Shown here piece after piece: positions 23,627 to 34,810 of a DNA stretch of 37,238 bases. The stretch comes from a virus: the IMG/VR virus record IMGVR_UViG_3300044846_000543, positions 1 through 37,238 of that record. One strand, written 5' to 3'. The position numbers were made by a program, and so were the translations under genes. Positions within the stretch are counted from its first letter, which is position 1. The number at the start of each line of letters is the position of its first letter. Under the pieces are notes generated by a model. The model saw only the letters and a list, made by a program, of their open reading frames with translations. It was not told where the DNA came from and did no database searches.

Positions 23627-25021
23627 TCAGACCAATCCTCGAATCAACCTTTTGATCGGTTTACCCCAAGACAAGTTAGACCCCCAAGAGATGGTGGCGG
23701 CATCTGAGGCAAATGTCAAGACAAAAGCATCAGCCATGTCGGGAGATTTCAAACCCCGTCTACGAATATCATCTTTGGATTCAATCTTTATCTTGCCATT
23801 AGATGTAAAGGTGTACCTTACAGTTGCAAGTTCAGCAATGAAGTCTTCGTTATTGGGTATCTTGCAGTCCCGCTTTTCTAGCCAAGCCTTGGTTTTGTGC
23901 CATAGTTCCGCACGAAGATTTAGATACGTACCACCCATTGCGGGGCTTTCGGACACGTTAATACCACGACAGGGAAGTTTTAGTTCTCTGAGTCGGTCAA
24001 CAACACCTGCTCCTAGGCCAATGGAGTCAACCAGAATCTCTGCGGGTCTACTCTTGTGGTCACAGGCTTCGTATTGGGCGACTACCGCACCTGTTAACTG
24101 CATCAGATCGAGGTTCCTCCACCTCTCAAGAGTGTGTACAACATTAGACTGACGTTTACATAGAACTGAAGAATCGGAGCCAAAACGAGCCACATCGAGT
24201 CCCCAAATGATCGGAGCGTCTTCATAAGCTCTTGTATCCCTGTGTTTAGCAGACTCAAGCAGTTCCATAGGAATAATCGTGTCATCATCGCTCCTTGGGA
24301 ATTCACCTAGAACCCTGATCCGATAGGCATTACTTTCCTCGCCATAGCGGGATTTCATGTCTTCAACGTACTCTTTACTTACCCTAGTAGAGTCAATACA
24401 GGATACTCTCTTTGTCCACCACTCATCTTTGAGCCTGTTATGGGTGTCAAAGAAGAAGCCAGAAGACCTAACTGGATTGCCTAGCAAGATGGTCAAAGCA
24501 TTATGGCCTGACATAGAACCCGCAGCAGCCTCGAATACTGCCTCTGGGACACCAGAAGCCTCATCCGCAACCAACATGACGTTCTCAGAGTGAACACCTT
24601 GTAGGGCTTCAGGTTGTTCAGCACGAGAAGTCCTTGCAGAGATAAATGCCTCGGTAGCGGAAGCCTTGAGTTCTATCCTCTCTTGTTTGACATCGAGTAA
24701 GTCTTGGATAGGTTGGGGCAGTTCTTTGACCCACCTTTTAAGCTCGGCAAACAAAGCATCATAAAGTTGGGCAGAAGTAGGGGCGGTCACCACGACTTTG
24801 ACGGGATACCTGGTCAACAAGAACCAAAGCATTGCCCATGAAGCGGTGGTTGACTTTCCGACTCCGTGACCAGAACGAATACTAATCTTTCGCTCACCAG
24901 AGGCTACAGCGTTAAGAAAGTCTTGTTGCCAATCATCAGGCTCTACCCCTAAGACCTCTTTAACGAACAGAACAGGGTCATTCCTGTATAGGGTAATGAA
25001 CTGGATAAATGGGTTATTCAT
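23627..25021 (-). CDS. terL: Terminase large subunit
   Basis: A 464-residue packaging motor. The ATPase domain has Walker A SGHGVGKST (50-58) and Walker B VMLVADEA (148-155, D153 E154), then the coupling stretch LTILLGNP. The RNase H-like nuclease domain shows acidic residues in IIWGLDVARFG (D276), ILVDSIGLG (D332) and SPDMADAF near the C-terminus. It docks on the portal and cuts concatemeric DNA. It overlaps the small subunit by 8 bases. Gene order TerS-TerL-portal-scaffold-capsid is canonical. Confidence 0.95.
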   Translation of the reverse strand: MNNPFIQFITLYRNDPVLFVKEVLGVEPDDWQQDFLNAVASGERKISIRSGHGVGKSTTASWAMLWFLLTRYPVKVVVTAPTSAQLYDALFAELKRWVKELPQPIQDLLDVKQERIELKASATEAFISARTSRAEQPEALQGVHSENVMLVADEASGVPEAVFEAAAGSMSGHNALTILLGNPVRSSGFFFDTHNRLKDEWWTKRVSCIDSTRVSKEYVEDMKSRYGEESNAYRIRVLGEFPRSDDDTIIPMELLESAKHRDTRAYEDAPIIWGLDVARFGSDSSVLCKRQSNVVHTLERWRNLDLMQLTGAVVAQYEACDHKSRPAEILVDSIGLGAGVVDRLRELKLPCRGINVSESPAMGGTYLNLRAELWHKTKAWLEKRDCKIPNNEDFIAELATVRYTFTSNGKIKIESKDDIRRRGLKSPDMADAFVLTFASDAATISWGSNLSWGKPIKRLIRGLV

Positions 25022-25457
25022 TGTTTTCCAGTATTACATCAGCCTTACCCATGTGCTTTAGTGCTTGGAGGTGTAGATCACCTAAAGAGATATTGACTTG
25101 GGTCTTGGCAGTGTCTCCGTAGTTCTCAGGATCAAGCTTAGAGGCCATCCACTTCCTAGTATCAACTTGGAGTCTGGCTTTGTTAACTCCACTGTTACTT
25201 GTCTCATCTGCTTGGTCAGCAATGTCTAAAGCCTCTTCTGCCAGTTTCTCAGCCTTTAGCTTACGAGCAGCGAGTACCGCATCTCTACGCTCATCAGTAT
25301 GGTTTATCCAAAAAGAAAGCATGGGCCTAGAACACTCTATGAACTCTGCCAAGCGTCCTATAGTCATTCCTTGGCTAATGTGTGCCGTTACGAACTCTAT
25401 CCCTCCAAGCTCTTCTATTTTCTTCTCCAACGCTCTCCTCATAGGAAATCCTGCCAT
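25014..25457 (-). CDS. terS: Terminase small subunit
   Basis: A 147-residue protein from ATG 25457, chosen for its strong AAGGAG site; an upstream in-frame ATG is nine codons away. The N-terminal part (EKKIEELGGIEFVTAHISQG, then IGRLAEFIECSRPMLSFWI) is a helix-turn-helix for pac-site recognition. The middle (DERRDAVLAARKLKAEKLAE) is a helical oligomerisation segment of the Sf6-type small terminase. The C-terminus would contact the large subunit. It is the first gene of the late operon. Confidence 0.85.
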   Translation of the reverse strand: MAGFPMRRALEKKIEELGGIEFVTAHISQGMTIGRLAEFIECSRPMLSFWINHTDERRDAVLAARKLKAEKLAEEALDIADQADETSNSGVNKARLQVDTRKWMASKLDPENYGDTAKTQVNISLGDLHLQALKHMGKADVILENNE

Positions 25458-25621
25458 ATCTTCTCCTTGATTTAATGGATACAAATTCTAAACTATAAAA
25501 AATTTTTTTGGAGGGTTATCTTTGTCCTGATAGGGGGTGGGTGGGGGTCTATCTTTTTAATGCTATGGCGATTTGTGTTTATGTCCCCTGTCACAGCGCC
25601 CCTCGGTTTATCGATAGGGGG

Positions 25622-25775
25622 GGGTAAACCCTTACTGGTAAACCATACCCTTACGTACTAACCCTTAAGGGTAAACCCCTAGGTAGAAACCCTGGTTAGG
25701 GTAAACCCTACTGTATGTCGGTCCAGTACTGTATGCCCATCCAGCTCCTGGGGTAAACCCTAATAGGGTAAACCC
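25622..25775. repeat. Five GGGTAAACCC inverted-repeat elements
   Basis: Perfect 10-mers GGGTAAACCC (arms GGGT/ACCC around AA) lie at 25622-25631, 25669-25678, 25699-25708, 25751-25760 and 25766-25775, with degenerate copies between (e.g. GGTAAACCA at 25637). Repeated short sites near the genome's main divergence point resemble iterons of a replication origin or an operator array. A sixth perfect copy, inverted, lies at 29486-29495. Confidence 0.85.
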
Positions 25776-25788
25776 TTGGTCCTGAGGT

Positions 25789-25805
25789 TATGCATTTTTT
25801 GCATA
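25789..25805. repeat. Inverted repeat TATGCA-N5-TGCATA
   Basis: A perfect 6-bp inverted repeat around TTTTT, directly after the last GGGTAAACCC element. It may be a dimeric operator or part of an AT-rich origin segment. The T-run is inside the loop and not after the stem, so it is not a terminator. Confidence 0.55.
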
Positions 25806-25982
25806 GTTTGTCTCAGATGCGCAAAGGGATTATGTAGAGGGATGTCTAAAGGGTTTCTAAATGTTTGTTTAATGCATATCTAACCTAATGCTCTAACCCT
25901 TGCCATCCCTATGTAATCCTCTTGTATATCCCCTATATAAAGAGAAGCCTTTGTTATGGGTTATCCCTTCTTTTCTTTTCTT

Positions 25983-26002
25983 AATTGTAGCTACAAAATC
26001 AA
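25983..26002. promoter_or_regulatory. Operator-like site, copy 1 (TTGTAGCTACAA)
   Basis: The 20-mer AATTGTAGCTACAAAATCAA contains the perfect 12-bp palindrome TTGTAGCTACAA (25985-25996). It matches the site at 30380-30399 at 19 of 20 positions. One copy lies upstream of the early operon, the other directly upstream of a ribbon-helix-helix regulator gene. A shared DNA-binding protein is the likely reader. Confidence 0.65.
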
Positions 26003-26077
26003 ACTGAATACTCAGGTTCTAAGGGTAACTACTCATAGGGTTTTGGAGCTATCAATGGAATCAATGACTTACGAGAC

Positions 26078-26105
26078 TTGGCACGATTCTTTCGTGCTAT
26101 ATATG
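26078..26105 (+). promoter_or_regulatory. Sigma70-like early promoter with internal operator
   Basis: TTGGCA (26078-26083, 5/6 to the -35 consensus) is spaced 16 bp from TATATG (26100-26105). Between and overlapping them lies a perfect inverted repeat GCACGA-TTCTT-TCGTGC (26081-26097). A dimeric repressor bound there would block polymerase. The predicted start near 26112 precedes the 31-aa ORF and the whole early operon. Confidence 0.6.
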
Positions 26106-26157
26106 TGAGAGGGTAGATTTTTAGCCTCTCTTTCATCAACTCTTAATAGGCTTACAT

Positions 26158-26253
26158 ATGAACGATAACCACAAAGACATCCTAACCGCCATCTTGGTAG
26201 GTCTAACCCTCTGTGCGGGTTTGCTTGCTTACTTTGATATTCTCACTAAATAA
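26158..26253 (+). CDS. 31-aa membrane peptide, first gene of early operon
   Basis: A short ORF beginning MNDNHKDILTAILVGLTLCA and ending GLLAYFDILTK. It has one hydrophobic helix flanked by polar ends, so a single-span inner-membrane peptide. The start follows the TAATAGGC(T/G)TACA leader seen before other early genes, with AGG about 7 bases upstream. Function unknown; a superinfection-exclusion or host-takeover role is conceivable, as for other early membrane peptides. Confidence 0.55.
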   Translation: MNDNHKDILTAILVGLTLCAGLLAYFDILTK

Positions 26254-26288
26254 TCTTTTTCTTTTCTTTTTTAATAGGCGTACACAAA

Positions 26289-26780
26289 ATGACTTACACA
26301 ATCAAAAACCTTAAGACTTGGAACACATGGGATGGAGGAGGCTACTCATGCACTCTCTACTGTGATGGCGAGAAGATCGCCTTAGTTCTTAATGAAGGCA
26401 TGGGAGGCGAAACCCGAATAATGACTTTAGATGTCAACTCTCCCAAAGTAGAAATCGATGGCTATTATGATAAAGAGGCAGATATACAGTTTCGCCAATG
26501 GGTTACCCCTAATTATGCGAAGCTTGATGCATTCTGCAAAACCCTTCCAAAATGGGATTGTTTAGGCGAGATGATGCATATGGATGCAGCCCTATACATT
26601 GAAGAATTAATTAGCGAAACCAATTATCAAAAGAAGCTAAATAATGCAAAGAAGAGAGGTACACCATTTAAAGTAGAAGGAGATGATAAATACACATTTA
26701 GTGTATTAAACACATTAGATCAAAAGGTAGTTATTAACTATCTTGAAAAGAATCACCCCAATAAATATCAATTAATCTAA
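26289..26780 (+). CDS. Early hypothetical protein, 163 aa
   Basis: Unrecognised. It has a strand-rich N-terminal half (TYTIKNLKTWNTWDGGGYSC, then TLYCDGEKIALVLNEGMGG) and a helical Lys/Asn-rich C-terminal half. It starts after the shared TTTAATAGGCGTACA leader. Codon use is AT-rich like the rest of the early block. It may act early on host functions; nothing in the sequence says how. Confidence 0.65.
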   Translation: MTYTIKNLKTWNTWDGGGYSCTLYCDGEKIALVLNEGMGGETRIMTLDVNSPKVEIDGYYDKEADIQFRQWVTPNYAKLDAFCKTLPKWDCLGEMMHMDAALYIEELISETNYQKKLNNAKKRGTPFKVEGDDKYTFSVLNTLDQKVVINYLEKNHPNKYQLI

Positions 26781-26792
26781 AAGGCGTACATC

Positions 26793-26990
26793 ATGGAAAA
26801 ACTAACTATTACCATCCAAATAGATAAAGCATACGGAGGATTTCTTTTCTATCCAATATGCGAGAAGGCTAAAACATTTGCAAAGCTTACCAAAACCAAA
26901 ACCTTATCATATGATGCAATCAAGCATATTAAAGAATTAGGTTATGAGGTAGTTTCTAAAGATCTGAGTTATGAGGTAGATGCAATATGA
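26793..26990 (+). CDS. Early hypothetical protein, 65 aa
   Basis: A 65-residue basic alpha/beta protein (MEKLTITIQIDKAYGGFLFY, then LSYDAIKHIKELGYEVVSKD). The leader AAAGGCGTACATC upstream is another copy of the early-gene leader. The stop overlaps the next start (ATGA). Function unknown. Confidence 0.6.
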   Translation: MEKLTITIQIDKAYGGFLFYPICEKAKTFAKLTKTKTLSYDAIKHIKELGYEVVSKDLSYEVDAI

Positions 26991-27247
26991 CTAAACCTAA
27001 ACAACATCCAAAGCTTTTAAATGAATTTATGCTTTATGAAGGATTAGAAGAGATTAATGCGGTTTTTGGGATATTAATCGCATTTAGGGCATATATTAAA
27101 AGTGATACCTTCCATAAATATCATGCAGAAATGGTACTTGATTCAATTACACAATTATTAGGTAGTGGCACACAAATAATAGAAGAGTGGATGCAAATTG
27201 AAGATGTAGCAGAAACTGAAGAGGAGAATAAAAATGTGGAAGGCTAA
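26987..27247 (+). CDS. Early hypothetical protein, 86 aa
   Basis: An 86-residue, largely helical protein (LLNEFMLYEGLEEINAVFGI, YHAEMVLDSITQLLGSG) with an acidic C-terminus (EDVAETEEENKN). It starts at a 4-base overlap with the previous gene and overlaps the next by 14 bases. Unrecognised. Confidence 0.6.
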   Translation: MTKPKQHPKLLNEFMLYEGLEEINAVFGILIAFRAYIKSDTFHKYHAEMVLDSITQLLGSGTQIIEEWMQIEDVAETEEENKNVEG

Positions 27248-27467
27248 ATTAGACTCTTGGAATTTCTCTTTTGAGGCATACCATGAAGAGGAAATGCTTT
27301 GCATTGAGCATTTAAAGCTTGGATTAAATAATCATGCAAAACAATATAATCTTGAAAAAGACTGGTGGCATGAATATGCAGGAGATATTTATACAGTTGA
27401 AATCAACTTGGGAACACCTTCATTCAATTCATGTTACAGAGACAATGAATTGATTCCAAATAAATAA
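27234..27467 (+). CDS. Early hypothetical protein, 77 aa
   Basis: A 77-residue protein rich in Trp, His and Tyr (MWKAKLDSWNFSFEAYHEEE, then EKDWWHEYAGDIYTVEINLG). Its start lies within the end of the upstream gene after a GAGGAG site. No known family. Gene spacing indicates the same transcript. Confidence 0.6.
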   Translation: MWKAKLDSWNFSFEAYHEEEMLCIEHLKLGLNNHAKQYNLEKDWWHEYAGDIYTVEINLGTPSFNSCYRDNELIPNK

Positions 27468-27489
27468 ACAACATTTAATAGGCGTGAAT

Positions 27490-28248
27490 ATGTATAACCC
27501 TTACAAATCAATCATTAAAAAAGATGGCTTGATCTATAAAAAGCTTTTGGGAACCGCATCAACGAAGACAATTAAAGGGGAGAAGATGGGTTTCCTAACC
27601 GCTATCCTCTACCTAACCCCTAACGATGATCTATGCCCCCTTGCAAAGCTTGCAGGATGCATGGAAGGATGCCTCTACACATCAGGAAGAGGCGCATTTA
27701 ATAGCGTGCAGCAGGCGAGAAAATCAAAAACTGAGTTTTGGTACACACAACAAAAAAGCTTTTTGTTTTCTCTTTGTGCAGATATTTGGACATTGAGAGA
27801 AAAGGCACAAAAGAATAATCAGAAACTATTAGTGCGACTAAATGGCACCAGCGATATTGCTTGGGAAAATTTTGAGATTATTCCAAATAGGACAATATTT
27901 AGTTTATTTCCTGATGTCCAATTCTATGATTACACAAAGCATCCCTCTAGAAAATTGGAAGGCAAAACTGTAGGCAATTATGATCTAACCTTTTCATTCT
28001 CAAGCATTACCCCAAAGCCAATATCTATAAAGGGATTGACTAACCCGAATAATTCCAGAGTGGCGGTAGTCTTTCAAAAGAAGGAAGATATTCCCTCAAG
28101 CTTTAGATCTTGGGAGGTTATTGATGGGGATGATTCTGATGTAAGACATATTGAGCCGAAAAATGTAGTTGTGGCTTTATATGCTAAAGGTAAGGCTAAA
28201 AAGGATCAATCGGGTTTTGTTCAAATTAAAGGGGTTCATTATGAATAA
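27490..28248 (+). CDS. GP88-family phage protein (possible Fe-S/radical-SAM-like)
   Basis: A 252-residue protein matching the phage 'Gene product 88' (GP88) pattern: MGFLTAILYLTPNDDLCPLA, KLAGCMEGCLYTSGRGAFNS, KLLVRLNGTSDIAWE, FPDVQFYDYTKHPSR and YDLTFSFSS. Three cysteines (C49, C57, C61) form a possible cluster site at the N-side of what looks like an alpha/beta barrel. The role is not established; an iron-sulfur enzyme is inference. ATG 27490 is preferred over an upstream GTG because the GTG lies inside the AGGCGTGA leader. It is the only recognised gene of the early operon. Confidence 0.75.
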   Translation: MYNPYKSIIKKDGLIYKKLLGTASTKTIKGEKMGFLTAILYLTPNDDLCPLAKLAGCMEGCLYTSGRGAFNSVQQARKSKTEFWYTQQKSFLFSLCADIWTLREKAQKNNQKLLVRLNGTSDIAWENFEIIPNRTIFSLFPDVQFYDYTKHPSRKLEGKTVGNYDLTFSFSSITPKPISIKGLTNPNNSRVAVVFQKKEDIPSSFRSWEVIDGDDSDVRHIEPKNVVVALYAKGKAKKDQSGFVQIKGVHYE

Positions 28249-28435
28249 GTTTTCACATATTAAAGATTTCTTTACTGATGATATTGGCGCAGGGAATATT
28301 TTGGATGTATTTACATTACAAGATGGATCTGTCATCGTAATAAATGATGAATATCTAGGTCACTATAAATCAATTGATGATTTTGATGGTGGAGAAGATC
28401 AATTAAATGGTTTTTATTTAAAGGGTTCAAAATGA
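28241..28435 (+). CDS. Early hypothetical protein, 64 aa
   Basis: Start chosen at ATG 28241 (AAAGGGG site; 8-base overlap with the GP88 gene); a longer upstream frame would read through GP88. The product MNKFSHIKDFFTDDIGAGNI then LDVFTLQDGSVIVINDEYLG is an acidic, beta-rich small protein. Unrecognised. Confidence 0.6.
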   Translation: MNKFSHIKDFFTDDIGAGNILDVFTLQDGSVIVINDEYLGHYKSIDDFDGGEDQLNGFYLKGSK

Positions 28436-28623
28436 ATAACATTAGATACTTAAGAGATTACCTTGCAGATATGTATATTGAAATGGAATCAAATTCTTTT
28501 ACTGTAGAGATATTCTCAGAATATTATGGTTTAGATGAAGAGGATGGAGAAAACCTTTTAAAACTGGCAAAGAAATGTTATGAGCAAAGAGTAGATTTTT
28601 TAACAGATATTGAGGAGAAATAA
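28432..28623 (+). CDS. Early hypothetical protein, 63 aa
   Basis: A 63-residue acidic helical protein (MNNIRYLRDYLADMYIEMES, then YYGLDEEDGENLLKLAKKC). ATGA overlap with the previous gene. Its layout resembles a small phage inhibitor or adaptor; no family is known to me. Confidence 0.58.
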   Translation: MNNIRYLRDYLADMYIEMESNSFTVEIFSEYYGLDEEDGENLLKLAKKCYEQRVDFLTDIEEK

Positions 28624-28625
28624 AA

Positions 28626-28796
28626 ATGCACGATATTAAAGAACAAATTAACATTATCTGGGAAGCTTTATGTGCTTACAGAGAGGATTTAATCCCCGAA
28701 GGAGATGAGCAATTTGATGAGATTTGGGGTGATATATGTACCGCTATGGCGGTCATTCAAGAAGATCTAGGCGTATCAGAGGAGGTAGACAAATGA
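28626..28796 (+). CDS. Early hypothetical protein, 56 aa
   Basis: A short gene with an AGGAG site 8 bases before ATG 28626 and a TGA that overlaps the next start (ATGA 28793-28796). The product MHDIKEQINIIWEALCAYRE then DLIPEGDEQFDEIWGDICTA is strongly acidic and helical, perhaps a DNA-mimic-like protein. Unrecognised. Confidence 0.65.
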   Translation: MHDIKEQINIIWEALCAYREDLIPEGDEQFDEIWGDICTAMAVIQEDLGVSEEVDK

Positions 28797-29044
28797 TGAA
28801 GGCATGGCATTACATGACTAACGAAGATGTCAGAAACCTAGCGGAGCAAGCCCTAGATGAAGCTTGCAAGCACATCCAAGATATCATTGGGGTACACAGT
28901 GGAGATGTGGCAGGGATCTACTTCTCTGGCAACAATAAGGATGCCATAGAGGCGGTTCTGATGCGTTACATCAACCTAGAATTAAGCTTCAGAGACTCAG
29001 AAATTAAAGAATTATTGGGAGAGAATAATAATGCAGCACAATGA
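28793..29044 (+). CDS. Early hypothetical protein, 83 aa
   Basis: Start at ATG 28793, set by an AGGAGGT site seven bases upstream and the ATGA overlap. An upstream extension with an Arg/Gly-rich stretch belongs to the shadow of the previous gene. The product (TNEDVRNLAEQALDEACKHI, DAIEAVLMRYINLELSFRDS) is a two-helix protein with no recognised family. Confidence 0.6.
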   Translation: MMKAWHYMTNEDVRNLAEQALDEACKHIQDIIGVHSGDVAGIYFSGNNKDAIEAVLMRYINLELSFRDSEIKELLGENNNAAQ

Positions 29045-29216
29045 AATGGGACAAATGAAGGGGGCTATTGGGGTTTTATTATTGGATGCCTCTGATATGT
29101 ATGAGGTAATAGATGAGGGTGATTGTGTATATTGGGTTCAATCTTTAGACGATCCTGATTCAAAACCTCTCTGTATTTCACCCTCTCAGTTTTGGCAATT
29201 ATTACCTTCTCTTTGA
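29031..29216 (+). CDS. Early hypothetical protein, 61 aa
   Basis: A 61-residue acidic protein (GAIGVLLLDASDMYEVIDEG, then DCVYWVQSLDDPDSKPLCIS). It starts 14 bases inside the previous gene after a GGGAG site and is the last gene of the early operon, just before a hairpin terminator. Function unknown. Confidence 0.58.
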   Translation: MQHNEMGQMKGAIGVLLLDASDMYEVIDEGDCVYWVQSLDDPDSKPLCISPSQFWQLLPSL

Positions 29217-29228
29217 TTAGGTGATCCA

Positions 29229-29256
29229 CAAAAAGGGGCTAAAAACCCCTTTCTTT
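29229..29256 (+). terminator. Hairpin terminator closing the early operon
   Basis: AAAGGGG, a 7-nt loop (CTAAAAA) and CCCCTTT, followed by a T-rich tail. The opposite strand also ends in T5 after the stem, so it could stop transcripts from both sides. It lies just after the last rightward early gene and before a long non-coding stretch. Confidence 0.72.
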
Positions 29257-29590
29257 GGGTTTCTTAAGTTAGTTGGCGCTTACTTCATGGGATCAATGAT
29301 TTAAGACATTTTTTGTAGTTGATGCATACCTACCATTGAAAAACGAAAAAGTAAGCTAAAAAAGCCCTTAAAATTGATTTTAGGCACAATCTGGGCCATG
29401 ACTCACGCACCAGTTTTTGCTGCTAAGTTAGTGAGTGCTAACTAACATCGATGATGTAAGTGAGTGCTAACTTACAAAATACTAAGGGTTTACCCTAATC
29501 GAGGACCATTTTACAAAAAAGTGGCATTTACTTTTTAGAAAGTCAAGTTAACCAATTTTTGAAAGTTCAAAGTTTTTGAAACTTTTGGAA
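29257..29590. promoter_or_regulatory. Non-coding stretch with twin operator-like repeats
   Basis: Between two convergent operons; no convincing gene. The 13-mer AGTGAGTGCTAAC occurs at 29430-29442 and 29459-29471, each inside its own inverted repeat: AGTTAG/CTAACT at 29426-29443 and GTAAGT/ACTTAC at 29456-29475. Between them is ACATCGATGATGT, also symmetric. Spacing of 29 bp is close to three helical turns. A GGGTTTACCC element follows at 29486. Upstream are AT-rich inverted repeats (around 29365-29395). Confidence 0.6.
29486..29495 (-). promoter_or_regulatory. Sixth GGGTAAACCC element (inverted)
   Basis: The plus strand reads GGGTTTACCC, the exact reverse complement of the five elements at 25.6-25.8 kb. 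It is followed by TAATCGAG. A related AGGGACTTACCCTAATC occurs in the small gap near 31430-31447. Isolated copies suggest a protein-binding site and not only a replication iteron. Confidence 0.6.
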
Positions 29591-29875
29591 TTAGAAAGCA
29601 TTTTTATTTTCAGCCCTGGTAGACAAAAGTCTCATTATTGTGATGTTCAGGGCTTCAATCTGATCCATCTTTTTTATGTGCCACATACGTCTCTGCCCAT
29701 GCCATCCTAGGGTTGGATTTGTATGGCAATCTTTGCACAGGGCTATGCAGGTGTACTGAAGCCCTTGCTTGTAGTGGTGAGCTTCTGATGGTCCTGACGC
29801 ATCACATACTGAACAAGGAAGTGACTTGACCAAAGCTAGGTGCAGTCTTTCCTTTGCGTTCAGCTTATTGTTCAT
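29591..29875 (-). CDS. HNH-type nuclease / zinc-binding phage protein
   Basis: A 94-residue protein with CSVCDASGPSEAHHYKQG (C21, C24, H33, H34) and LCKDCHTNP (C47, C50, H51), plus WHGQRRMW (H59). This is the layout of small beta-beta-alpha-metal nucleases of the phage recombination/NinG-Ref type. It may cut branched DNA or act in DNA metabolism. It is the last gene of the leftward replication operon and overlaps the previous gene by 4 bases. Confidence 0.7.
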   Translation of the reverse strand: MNNKLNAKERLHLALVKSLPCSVCDASGPSEAHHYKQGLQYTCIALCKDCHTNPTLGWHGQRRMWHIKKMDQIEALNITIMRLLSTRAENKNAF

Positions 29876-30198
29876 TGGGTTGCCCTGACTTCCATTCTGG
29901 CTGAGTACTGGTTAGTTCTCCAGACCTCAATCCTTGCTTGGGCAGCGGTCATAAGCCAGCGATACTTCTCTTCTTTTTCTACGGCAGCTCTTATGCCCTC
30001 TAGCACTTCAATGTATTCCTCATGGGCATAGGCAAAGGTTTCTTGTTTACCCAGAACTTCCGTCCCTGCCTGGCTCATCAGGTGAGCCTTCTTGGACTTG
30101 CGGAACTCCTCCAAGTACAGGCGCTCTGACTTCGCTTGGGCGTACAAGGGTGCGGTGTCGATCAAATACTGAATTGCTTTGTCGGGGCTGCTCTCCAT
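29872..30198 (-). CDS. Conserved-looking helical hypothetical protein
   Basis: A 108-residue all-helical protein (DTAPLYAQAKSERLYLEEFR, then KSKKAHLM; later YIEVLEGIRAAVEKEEKYRW). I recognise the LIDTAPxYAxAKxxRxYLEEFRKSKKA block from other phages, without a known function. The start ATG 30198 has a GGAG site 8 bases upstream. Its first 152 bases also encode the tail of the ribbon-helix-helix gene in another frame. Confidence 0.72.
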   Translation of the reverse strand: MESSPDKAIQYLIDTAPLYAQAKSERLYLEEFRKSKKAHLMSQAGTEVLGKQETFAYAHEEYIEVLEGIRAAVEKEEKYRWLMTAAQARIEVWRTNQYSARMEVRATQ

Positions 30199-30373
30199 GA
30201 ATCAATCTCCAATGCTTCTCTGCTAAACGTCTTATTCCTTCGGACAAGGAACCATTCCCTGCCAAGGTCAATGCTTGCTCATGGATAGGCGCTACCCTTG
30301 CTCGGATAGTCCTACCTTCTTCGCTGATCTTCTTGCGACCAGCGCCTTTTCTTGAACCGCCACGTTGTTTCAT
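30047..30373 (-). CDS. Ribbon-helix-helix-like regulator with overprinted tail
   Basis: A 108-residue protein. Residues 1-15 are basic (RGGSRKGAGRKK), then strand RTIRARV (21-27) and helices HEQALTLAGN and SLSEGIRRLAEKHW, a ribbon-helix-helix pattern. Residues ~59-108 overlap the next gene and look unconstrained (Pro/Gly/Arg-rich). No Shine-Dalgarno precedes the ATG. Instead TATAAT lies 7 bases upstream, so the transcript may be leaderless. The TAGCTACAA site spans this promoter, suggesting autoregulation. Confidence 0.7.
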   Translation of the reverse strand: MKQRGGSRKGAGRKKISEEGRTIRARVAPIHEQALTLAGNGSLSEGIRRLAEKHWRLIHGEQPRQSNSVFDRHRTLVRPSEVRAPVLGGVPQVQEGSPDEPGRDGSSG

Positions 30374-30910: not shown

Positions 30911-31144
30911 TTAAGGCAATGGAAATGTTTTCATGTTGCGTACAAAACAAGCAAAGGATTCAGCAGTAGTGCCAAAGGCTTTCATCTTGTCAAACTCTTT
31001 GGCTACCTCATCAAGTACTTGGTTTCTTTGGGATGGAGAGACAAACACCTCAAAATGGTAAGGCTGACCCTTAATCAAGTTTTCATGCTCAATCCGATCA
31101 AACTCATCATCTTCATCTGTTTTCATGCTTGTTACTTCAGTCAT
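30911..31144 (-). CDS. Hypothetical protein, 77 aa
   Basis: A 77-residue acidic protein with an HFEVFVSPSQRNQVLDEVAK segment and FACFVRNMKTF end. It overlaps the upstream gene by 4 bases. No family recognised; it is part of the replication and regulation operon. Confidence 0.58.
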   Translation of the reverse strand: MTEVTSMKTDEDDEFDRIEHENLIKGQPYHFEVFVSPSQRNQVLDEVAKEFDKMKAFGTTAESFACFVRNMKTFPLP

Positions 31145-31377
31145 ACGTCTTCAGTTTTGTAGTTCAACTTGTGGCTCTGGAACCGCATGGCTCCTTCCAT
31201 TTCTAACTCTTTAAACTGCTCATCAGAGATAAGGCCAACAACATTGCGTCCCTCAAACCAAATCTCTTTGATTGATTCGTTGTATGTTGTCTCGCCATCA
31301 AACTCATATTCGTAAACAACTGTCACTACTTCGCTACCTGCTCCAGTAGTTGTGTCAAATTCCCAAGTGCTTTCCAT
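31141..31377 (-). CDS. Hypothetical protein, 78 aa
   Basis: A 78-residue acidic, beta-rich protein (SEVVTVVYEYEFDGETTYNE, then IKEIWFEGRNVVGLISDEQF). Unrecognised. It starts after a 64-base gap behind RusA containing a TAGGGACTTACCCTAATC element, so a regulatory site may sit just upstream of it. Confidence 0.58.
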   Translation of the reverse strand: MESTWEFDTTTGAGSEVVTVVYEYEFDGETTYNESIKEIWFEGRNVVGLISDEQFKELEMEGAMRFQSHKLNYKTEDV

Positions 31378-31441
31378 GATTTACTCCTGTTTAAAAGCTT
31401 TATTTTCTATATTTTTACGTTGTTGAACATAGGGACTTACC

Positions 31442-31870
31442 CTAATCTAGGCATTCTTTTACGCAAATATCAACACCAGGCAGACTCGAATAAACCTTCG
31501 TAACGTGGATGTTTATGATCTGCGAGTCGTCATGGTAAACAACCCCGTTCATGCCATCTTCTACGCTCTTAAGGATATTGCTTGCGTCAGGCTTCTTGGT
31601 TGGTTTCTCTGACCCGTTATCAATGGCTTCTAACCGCTTTTTAGTGCATGACTTAGGGATTGGCACTCGAATATAGAGATAAAGGCTAACAGGGGTTCCC
31701 AATGGTTCAGACGCACCCATTGCCTCAATTGCAGCTTCTTTGATTAAGGCTTCGTAGGTTCTTGTCTTCTCAGGAGTGTATGTGCTGACAAAATTACCCC
31801 TCTTGACGTATCTAGCCCTTTGTTTGCCAACAGGGTTAGCGTCTACTTTAAAAGTCACCATAAAGGTCAT
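31442..31870 (-). CDS. rusA: RusA-like Holliday junction resolvase
   Basis: A 142-residue enzyme from ATG 31870 (ATGA overlap with the methyltransferase stop). It has the RusA pattern: N-terminal strand FKVDANPVGKQRARYVKRG, middle KPDASNILKSVEDGMNGVVY (D95, N98, K101, D105) and HDDSQIINIHVTKVY (D114/D115). The acidic residues coordinate magnesium to cut four-way junctions during replication and recombination. Partners with ERF in the opposite arm. An upstream in-frame extension is unlikely. Confidence 0.88.
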   Translation of the reverse strand: MTFMVTFKVDANPVGKQRARYVKRGNFVSTYTPEKTRTYEALIKEAAIEAMGASEPLGTPVSLYLYIRVPIPKSCTKKRLEAIDNGSEKPTKKPDASNILKSVEDGMNGVVYHDDSQIINIHVTKVYSSLPGVDICVKECLD

Positions 31871-33183: not shown

Positions 33184-33291
33184 CTAGTCCAAGTCACCAG
33201 TAAGTTCTAATGCTTGATTGATTAGACGTACGGGATATGGTACGCCTTCCTTGACTCTGTCTAGCAGTCTCATGGCTTCAAAATAGTTCAA
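33184..33291 (-). CDS. 35-aa microprotein with TTG start
   Basis: TTG (33289-33291) overlaps the TGA of the replication gene as TTGA, with an AGGAG site six bases upstream inside that gene. The product LNYFEAMRLLDRVKEGVPYP then VRLINQALELTGDL has the shape of a small helical phage protein pattern I know (VRxGxPxPxxxINxALxxTGDL). It may help the adjacent DUF1376 protein. An internal ATG at codon 7 is the alternative start. Confidence 0.62.
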   Translation of the reverse strand: MNYFEAMRLLDRVKEGVPYPVRLINQALELTGDLD

Positions 33292-34040
33292 GCTTTTCTC
33301 CTGAAAGAATTAAGAATTTCTCGCTCTGCCGCTGTTGGAGGGCGAGTTGTTTTTTCATCAGCCTTGATCTTCTCAAGCGCAGGGTCAGGCTCATTTGATG
33401 GCGCAACTGTGAGCCTCACAACATCATAGGGATTCGGCTTAACAGCTTTAGTGTTGCGTACCCAATTACGCCATGTTGCATCCCAATCAAGCTTCACACC
33501 CTTTTGACCTGCTTGGGCAATCCAATAATCTTTGAACTGTTCAGCAACCTGACGCACATCTAGGTCAGGTCTTTCCTTAGTAGCCCAATCTCCCATTGAT
33601 TTACTAAGAAACCAGTCTTGAGATAGGCGTGAGCCTTTCTTGCTCTTCTCTTTTGTGTTATGTGTAATAGGTAATGTGTTATGTGTAGCATTGCTATCGG
33701 ATTGCGTTGGCAATGCGTTCGCATTCTTCTTACCCCATCTAGCCTTGGCAGAGGCACTAGCCTTCTCTGATTTAATGCCAACTTTAAGCAATTCCTGAAT
33801 AACTCTGAGATTAATCCACCCATCTTCTCTCAATTCAAAGTATTCGTTTAATACGATTCCAATGCTTTCGCTATGCGTTCGCATACGAATTTGTCTAGCA
33901 ATCTCATCTAGGTCTACTGGAAGTGGTTTTTCATGCAAGTAAGACCAATCAAGCATCCTGCGAAAAGCAAGATCTTCAATCTCGGAAAGGTGCATGGTGT
34001 GACTGTTGTAGTCACCAATATTAAATTGGTAATAGTGCAT
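33288..34040 (-). CDS. DUF1376-type replication protein
   Basis: A 250-residue protein. The N-terminus (MHYYQFNIGDYNSHTMHLSE, then DLAFRRMLDWSYLHEKPLP) is the DUF1376/YdaU winged-helix domain that takes the place of lambda O-type initiators in many phages. A Lys/Ser-rich linker follows, then a second domain (WDATWRNWVRNT and neighbours), the typical C-terminal segment of phage replisome organisers. It probably binds the origin and recruits the host helicase. ATG 34040 is chosen because family members begin MHYYQFNIGDY; a TTG six codons upstream is possible. Confidence 0.85.
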   Translation of the reverse strand: MHYYQFNIGDYNSHTMHLSEIEDLAFRRMLDWSYLHEKPLPVDLDEIARQIRMRTHSESIGIVLNEYFELREDGWINLRVIQELLKVGIKSEKASASAKARWGKKNANALPTQSDSNATHNTLPITHNTKEKSKKGSRLSQDWFLSKSMGDWATKERPDLDVRQVAEQFKDYWIAQAGQKGVKLDWDATWRNWVRNTKAVKPNPYDVVRLTVAPSNEPDPALEKIKADEKTTRPPTAAEREILNSFRRKA

Positions 34041-34082
34041 AGCTGTCTCATGTTCCAATTCTCCCTAAAAGAAACTGCGGCA

Positions 34083-34687: not shown

Positions 34688-34810
34688 GTGAGTAGCCTAG
34701 CATGATAAAAAAGTTGCGTAAATTAGGGAAAACCCCTATGTAAATTCAGGAATGTATGTGGCACATTATGGGTGTGGGCAAACAGTAACCCACGCTTAAC
34801 AGGAGTAAAT
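34688..34810. promoter_or_regulatory. Divergent promoter region at 34.7 kb
   Basis: A 123-base gap between divergent operons. TTGCGT and TATGTA are 17 bp apart on plus; TATCAT (5/6 to the -10 consensus) lies on minus with only a weak -35. An inverted element TTAGGGAAAACCCCTA (GGGAAAACCC at 34726-34735), close to the GGGTAAACCC elements of the central region, sits inside both possible promoters. A single regulator could thus control both arms. Confidence 0.5.

Follow-up and report, generated by a model that had tools for sequence, protein, structure and literature searches.

Our analysis provides evidence for a conserved intergenic hub of quasi-palindromic AGGGTAAACCCT sites in an uncultured phage group. 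We put at about even the chances that these sites are operators for a host-encoded regulator, most likely from Burkholderiales, and that occupancy of the hub ties phage transcription to the state of the host. That the sites belong to a host regulator is in itself probable, judging by where the motif recurs, and control of transcription as their purpose is a tentative proposition, somewhat short of even. The motif is a real, conserved, operator-like site, given its presence in 58 of 58 relatives and the intergenic position of every exact copy in the window, by which we mean the whole analysed stretch of 37,238 nucleotides.

The array and its setting in the phage genome

The window is a 37.2-kb IMG/VR phage contig with a portal protein (phrog_1216) that also has relatives in Bruynoghevirus LUZ24. 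By TerL the closest named phage is Sinorhizobium phage phiM5 (56%); IMG/VR holds hundreds of uncultured relatives, and several of the complete ones are circles opened at varied positions. The terminase genes terS and terL run leftward from 25457, a rightward block of mostly uncharacterised genes occupies 26289-29216, and a replication/recombination block encodes RusA, a DUF1376/primosomal protein and an Erf-like protein. The gene for the small terminase subunit, terS, is the first late gene (25014-25457, - strand); its ATG at 25457 follows AGGAGAAG, and the ORF tool placed the start at a TTG at 25484. The hub is mosaic, has the array as its main element and lies at the boundary of the late (packaging/structural) and early modules.

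A motif search of the window returned five exact copies of GGGTAAACCC at 25622, 25669, 25699, 25751 and 25766, all on the + strand, so that the five perfect copies in 154 bp claimed by the original prediction are all in place. The array (25622-25775) has the extended core AGGGTAAACCCT, a palindrome of AGGG and CCCT around a 4-base centre, and site-to-site spacings of 47, 30, 52 and 15 bp. A degenerate further copy, TGGTAAACCA (25636-25645, + strand), had been overlooked before. A run of eight G (25617-25624, + strand) abuts the first site, and a G or C tract of at least 7 also abuts the array in many other lineages.

The sixth exact copy, reported as inverted, is indeed found on the - strand at 29486-29495; it stands alone between convergent operons, flanked by the ends of genes 29031-29216 (+) and 29591-29875 (-). 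The near copy GGGAAAACCC lies at the early divergent promoter, as had been described (34726-34735, + strand). The copy at 29486 is not in a control region of divergent genes, a correction to the original prediction. The looser copy reported at about 31430 corresponds to AGGGACTTACCCT (31431-31443, + strand), upstream of gene 31141-31377 (-), and is a weak member of the motif because its centre has 5 bases instead of the 4 of the other copies. At up to one mismatch the window holds 8 sites, whereas 100 shuffles averaged 1.07 and never exceeded 5. The six exact copies and the one at 34726 are all intergenic, and the motif is thus not as frequent within genes as in the control regions.

The best-conserved element of the hub is TTTTTTATAGTTTAGAATTTGTA (25480-25502, - strand), located just upstream of the terS ribosome-binding site and almost invariant in 50 relatives. 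It is conserved far above the array, the copies of which are no better conserved than the remaining hub sequence. TTTTTTATAGTTTAGAATTTGTA is probably the terS promoter region, and the array sits more than 100 bp away from it. A plain promoter scan returned no promoter above chance in the window hub, and a search for RNA elements in 25450-29700 returned one sub-threshold match only. In the near-complete relatives G001 and G008 both contig ends fall inside the hub, which may reflect strain variation there or a nearby physical end.

The convergent region holds a second type of site as well, with two copies of GTGAGTGCTAAC at 29431-29471. Two to four GTGAGTGCTAAC-like sites occur in the convergent regions of seven relatives (G001-G005, G007, G008), and G005 has GTGAGTACTCAC, the consensus of the E. 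coli nucleoid occlusion protein SlmA (PMC3116907). SlmA is encoded in four of eight Burkholderiales genomes tested. A reading as CIRCE/HrcA half-sites was dropped, the 12-bp sites being closer to the SlmA consensus.

Conservation of the array and its relation to the terminase

Comparison of the intergenic regions of relatives located the array upstream of terS in all 58 genomes (a set that counts the window itself). In total, 166 exact copies fall within 520 bp upstream of terS, with at least one per genome, against 0.55 expected. Copy number ranges from 1 to 6 per relative, and the spacings cluster at about 15, 23-25, 29-30, 33 and 47-52 bp. Within a smaller set of nine genomes (the window and eight relatives) the hub holds 24 of 32 exact sites, and the intercopy spacing outside the window is 12-56 bp. 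Sites are hence concentrated in few regions, far above chance. The solitary copies are also kept: in most complete relatives the one at 29486 has a counterpart, in one or the other orientation, some 100 bp beyond the stop codon of the 29591 gene, and GGGAAAACCC or GGATAAACCC recurs at the early divergent promoter of relatives. One relative (G006) is without the entire rightward block, yet its hub keeps one site together with LexA boxes; the hub is therefore not there for that operon. The array was not found in distant relatives sharing the structural module (C72C1, MW202711 and the first 8 kb of phiM5).

Repeated sites next to terS may also be read as a packaging or replication element, i.e. 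a terminase-binding (cosB/pac-like) site or an origin of replication, and we consider this very unlikely. The window lineage, L170, L188 and L191 do have the array beside terS, the distant relative phiM5 has a terminal repeat directly upstream of its terminase gene, and the G or C tracts noted above abut the array in many lineages. The motif, however, does not track terS. In L170, L188 and L191 both TerS and TerL are unrelated to those of the window while early genes are common, and a site pair is situated about 110-130 bp upstream of that other terS. Six further relatives (L099, L102, L109, L111, L135, L050) keep the array despite about 700 bp of extra DNA before terS, and G013 and G014 carry it without a TerS of the window type. 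In these two and in L148 at least two copies lie between convergent genes. Phages with unrelated terminases and few common genes thus have the array independently, and it is neither specific to one TerS type nor bound to a place beside terS. Moreover, LexA and Fur-like boxes, which accompany the array in relatives (see below), would not be expected in a terminase site. A TerS-binding, cosB-like array was accordingly dropped as the main reading, since the motif also occurs with unrelated TerS.

The suggestion that the array itself is the origin fares no better. Regular iterons near an initiator gene are not present: the spacings are uneven, and about 8 kb separate the array from the initiator-like gene (33288-34058). 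A cumulative GC-skew minimum does fall near 25.9 kb as anticipated, but an equal one falls at 34 kb. The skew is uninformative on the origin because both minima mark switches of gene direction, and an origin call from GC skew was abandoned.

Occurrences of the paired motif in coding DNA of two phage groups (L145 and L139) were left out of the support because they are probably lineage-specific protein repeats. An unrelated phage contig (L164, 7784-13770) carries about 14 palindromic AGGG-N4-CCCT sites, mostly intergenic, including four identical copies at an exact 36-bp spacing.

Burkholderiales promoters and host-type regulator boxes

The reading we prefer, sites for a host regulator, draws on the occurrence of the same 12-mer in bacterial chromosomes. 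A scan of 84,980 species (one genome per species) returned head-to-tail paired sites at 44 places, 12 of them in Betaproteobacteria, mostly Burkholderiales; L289, one of the 12, is a phage-like contig from a betaproteobacterial MAG. Across 151 genomes of the Rhodoferax family we count about 150 occurrences of the 12-mer versus about 15 of its reversed control, and in a class-wide sample about 30 versus about 15 (all approximate counts). The chromosomal sites lie upstream of genes and often overlap the promoter -10 box (AGGGTTTACCCTATAAT). In Paraburkholderia and Alcaligenaceae, for instance, TAGGGTTTACCCTATAAT is a site running into the -10 box upstream of DUF1127-like small proteins, and other sites precede a CoA-transferase (Rhodoferax) and acetyltransferases (gene names were read from translations). 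We infer that AGGGTAAACCCT is an operator used by a Burkholderiales regulator. A literature search by title recognised no published bacterial operator matching the motif. Against 300 Burkholderiales-order genomes the window TerL reaches no more than 36% identity.

As an observation in its own right, AGGGTTTACCCT is found at promoters of DUF1127-like, acetyltransferase, CoA-transferase and dehydrogenase genes (L293, L294, L297, L315, L316, L364, L371, L374 and similar chromosomal loci) and may represent a Burkholderiales regulon that appears to be undescribed.

The hub of relatives carries, in addition, host-type boxes for known regulators. The LexA box CTGT-N8-ACAG occurs 37 times in 27 of the 58 hub regions, against 0.45 expected. 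Among 45 distinct LexA boxes near arrays the centre is variable and the outer two bases on each side are mostly TA...TA, flanks left free in the query. Each of the five perfect LexA boxes in the nine-genome set falls inside the hub, and in L148, L160, L170, L188 and L206 such boxes are interspersed with the sites or flank them. In Burkholderiales this box is also found ahead of the SOS genes imuA, recA, umuD and dnaE2, with zero control hits; the relatives' phage DNA thus contains LexA boxes of host type. At the place where relatives have perfect boxes, the window carries two LexA-like ones on the + strand, CTGTATGTCGGTCCAG (25711-25726) and CTGTATGCCCATCCAG (25729-25744), each with a single mismatch.

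Fur-like boxes such as AATGCGAATCATTCTCATT are present at the hub of 14 (strict pattern) to 29 (looser pattern) of the 58 relatives, none being expected. Matching boxes in Burkholderiales are found at iron genes, among them those of a TonB-type receptor, hemP, bfd and a siderophore-interacting protein; the strictest Fur-like pattern gave zero hits in 15 Burkholderiales genomes. No Fur-like box was found in the window, where the palindrome TATGCATTTTTTGCATA (25789-25805) occupies the place that a Fur-like box takes in many relatives. Judged by the boxes recognised, the multi-regulator hub is a property of the group, and in the window only its AGGGTAAACCCT part is strong.

Further palindromes occur nearby. 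TATGCA-N5-TGCATA was considered as a host box and dropped, being not enriched in 15 Burkholderiales genomes. The hubs of L142, L149, L155, L160, L174 and L178 have a common palindrome ACCGACCGGTCGGT, followed in most by TAATTAA; it sits between the TATGCA-like palindrome and the array and looks like another regulator box.

The original prediction had proposed genome-wide operators for a phage-encoded regulator or initiator. Its first half stands, i.e. a conserved operator-like site at several places, and its second, a phage-encoded binder, is not supported. The candidates would be either of two proteins acting at several of the phage's own control points: gp30047 (30047-30373, - strand), a small protein with an N-terminus resembling ribbon-helix-helix (RHH) proteins, and the HTH-like gp34149. 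Several control points of the phage do have the sites, complete relatives keep gp30047 at 85-99% conservation, and RHH-like proteins are encoded in several array-bearing contigs, with L170 and L188 having them next to the array. While the operator stays conserved, however, the strand by which these proteins would read DNA varies, and the structure model of gp30047 is poor (mean pLDDT 63.5, pTM 0.34). The RHH-like protein was set aside as a less likely binder for its non-conserved presumed reading strand and weak fold model, and gp34149 was not detected in G014. The 12-mer also stands at Burkholderiales promoters, is common to phages with unrelated terminases, and in relatives lies beside host-type LexA and Fur-like boxes. 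A phage-encoded regulator is less likely than one supplied by the host, and we regard it as decidedly improbable.

Possible transcription control or titration, and known systems

Should the host regulator bind the hub, together with LexA and Fur in many relatives, occupancy would make phage transcription at the late/early boundary depend on the state of the host. The late programme would thereby be held back or released, as in phages with CtrA-dependent 'lytic deferment'. The host would most likely be a member of Burkholderiales, and the direction of the effect could be either. That the window lineage, L170, L188 and L191 have the array just upstream of terS, and that near copies sit at the early divergent promoter, fits control.

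A simple operator is less favoured because there is no recognisable promoter in the hub, because the terS promoter region is more than 100 bp away, and because the placement is convergent in some lineages; the same three features favour a titration or structural role. A hub that acts as decoy would control no phage promoter at all. Multiplying phage genomes would soak up the host regulator (in relatives also LexA and Fur) and derepress or disturb host programmes. The convergent setting of the array in G013, G014 and L148, where L148 also has a LexA box within it, and the outcome of the promoter scan would suit such a decoy, as would several different host boxes in one place and a copy number and order that vary freely. 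In contrast, the terS-proximal arrays and the near copies at the early divergent promoter fit control, and LexA is usually abundant in cells and would be titrated poorly by one or two sites per genome. We consider the decoy unlikely. Its extended form, a mobile, mosaic, promoter-independent sponge that titrates LexA, Fur, the AGGGTAAACCCT regulator and perhaps others and is exchanged among phages with unrelated terminases, seems to us similarly doubtful.

Our preferred scenario remains control by a host regulator. The sites found here suggest that the phage reads or captures the host's own gene regulators, and a hub combining several of them appears to be common to a large uncultured phage group and to phages whose terminases are unrelated. 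That phages read the host state via the host regulators CtrA, Spo0A and LexA is already known. New, if true, would be a hub common to phages with unrelated terminases that joins an apparently undescribed Burkholderiales operator to LexA and Fur-like boxes. Metagenomic phages could then be assigned to hosts by a sequence signature, a seemingly undescribed Burkholderiales regulon would become accessible, and a link of infection timing to DNA damage and iron status could be put to the test.

The stoperators of mycobacteriophage L5 are comparable in being short operators repeated at several positions of a single phage genome. They are scattered and bound by a phage repressor, whereas the present sites are concentrated and are found in host promoters too. 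The R sites of phage lambda cosB likewise form a set of short repeats directly upstream of the gene for the small terminase subunit, but the present motif persists with unrelated TerS and, in G013 and G014, without a TerS of the window type.

Among phages with sites for host regulators, the virulent Bacillus phage phi29 has sites for the host master regulator Spo0A (Meijer et al. 2005, as cited in PMC9437464); there, by that account, host group and regulator are different, and the association with promoters has been shown experimentally. GIL01, CTX and other phages use host LexA (Fornelos et al. 2016, as cited in PMC9437464). They share with our relatives LexA boxes in phage DNA, here confined to one region in complete relatives. 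As summarised in that source, the known sites are in antirepressor, co-repressor or lytic gene promoters, none of which we recognised here, and the window's own boxes carry one mismatch each.

The closest parallel is provided by the CtrA-site clusters of Alphaproteobacteria phages, for which 'lytic deferment' has been described (Mascolo et al. 2022, PMC9437464). In phage vB_StuS_MMDA13 of that study, the CtrA sites occupy the space between two divergently oriented gene blocks, where imperfect direct repeats of 12 bp occur (PMC9437464). For members of that group, experiments demonstrated both binding and regulation by CtrA (PMC9437464), so that their regulator is named and its binding established, in contrast to our case, which is built from the sites themselves, combines several host boxes and has a convergent placement in some lineages. 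Common to both systems is a dense intergenic cluster of sites, in our case for a putative host regulator, in several unrelated phage lineages.
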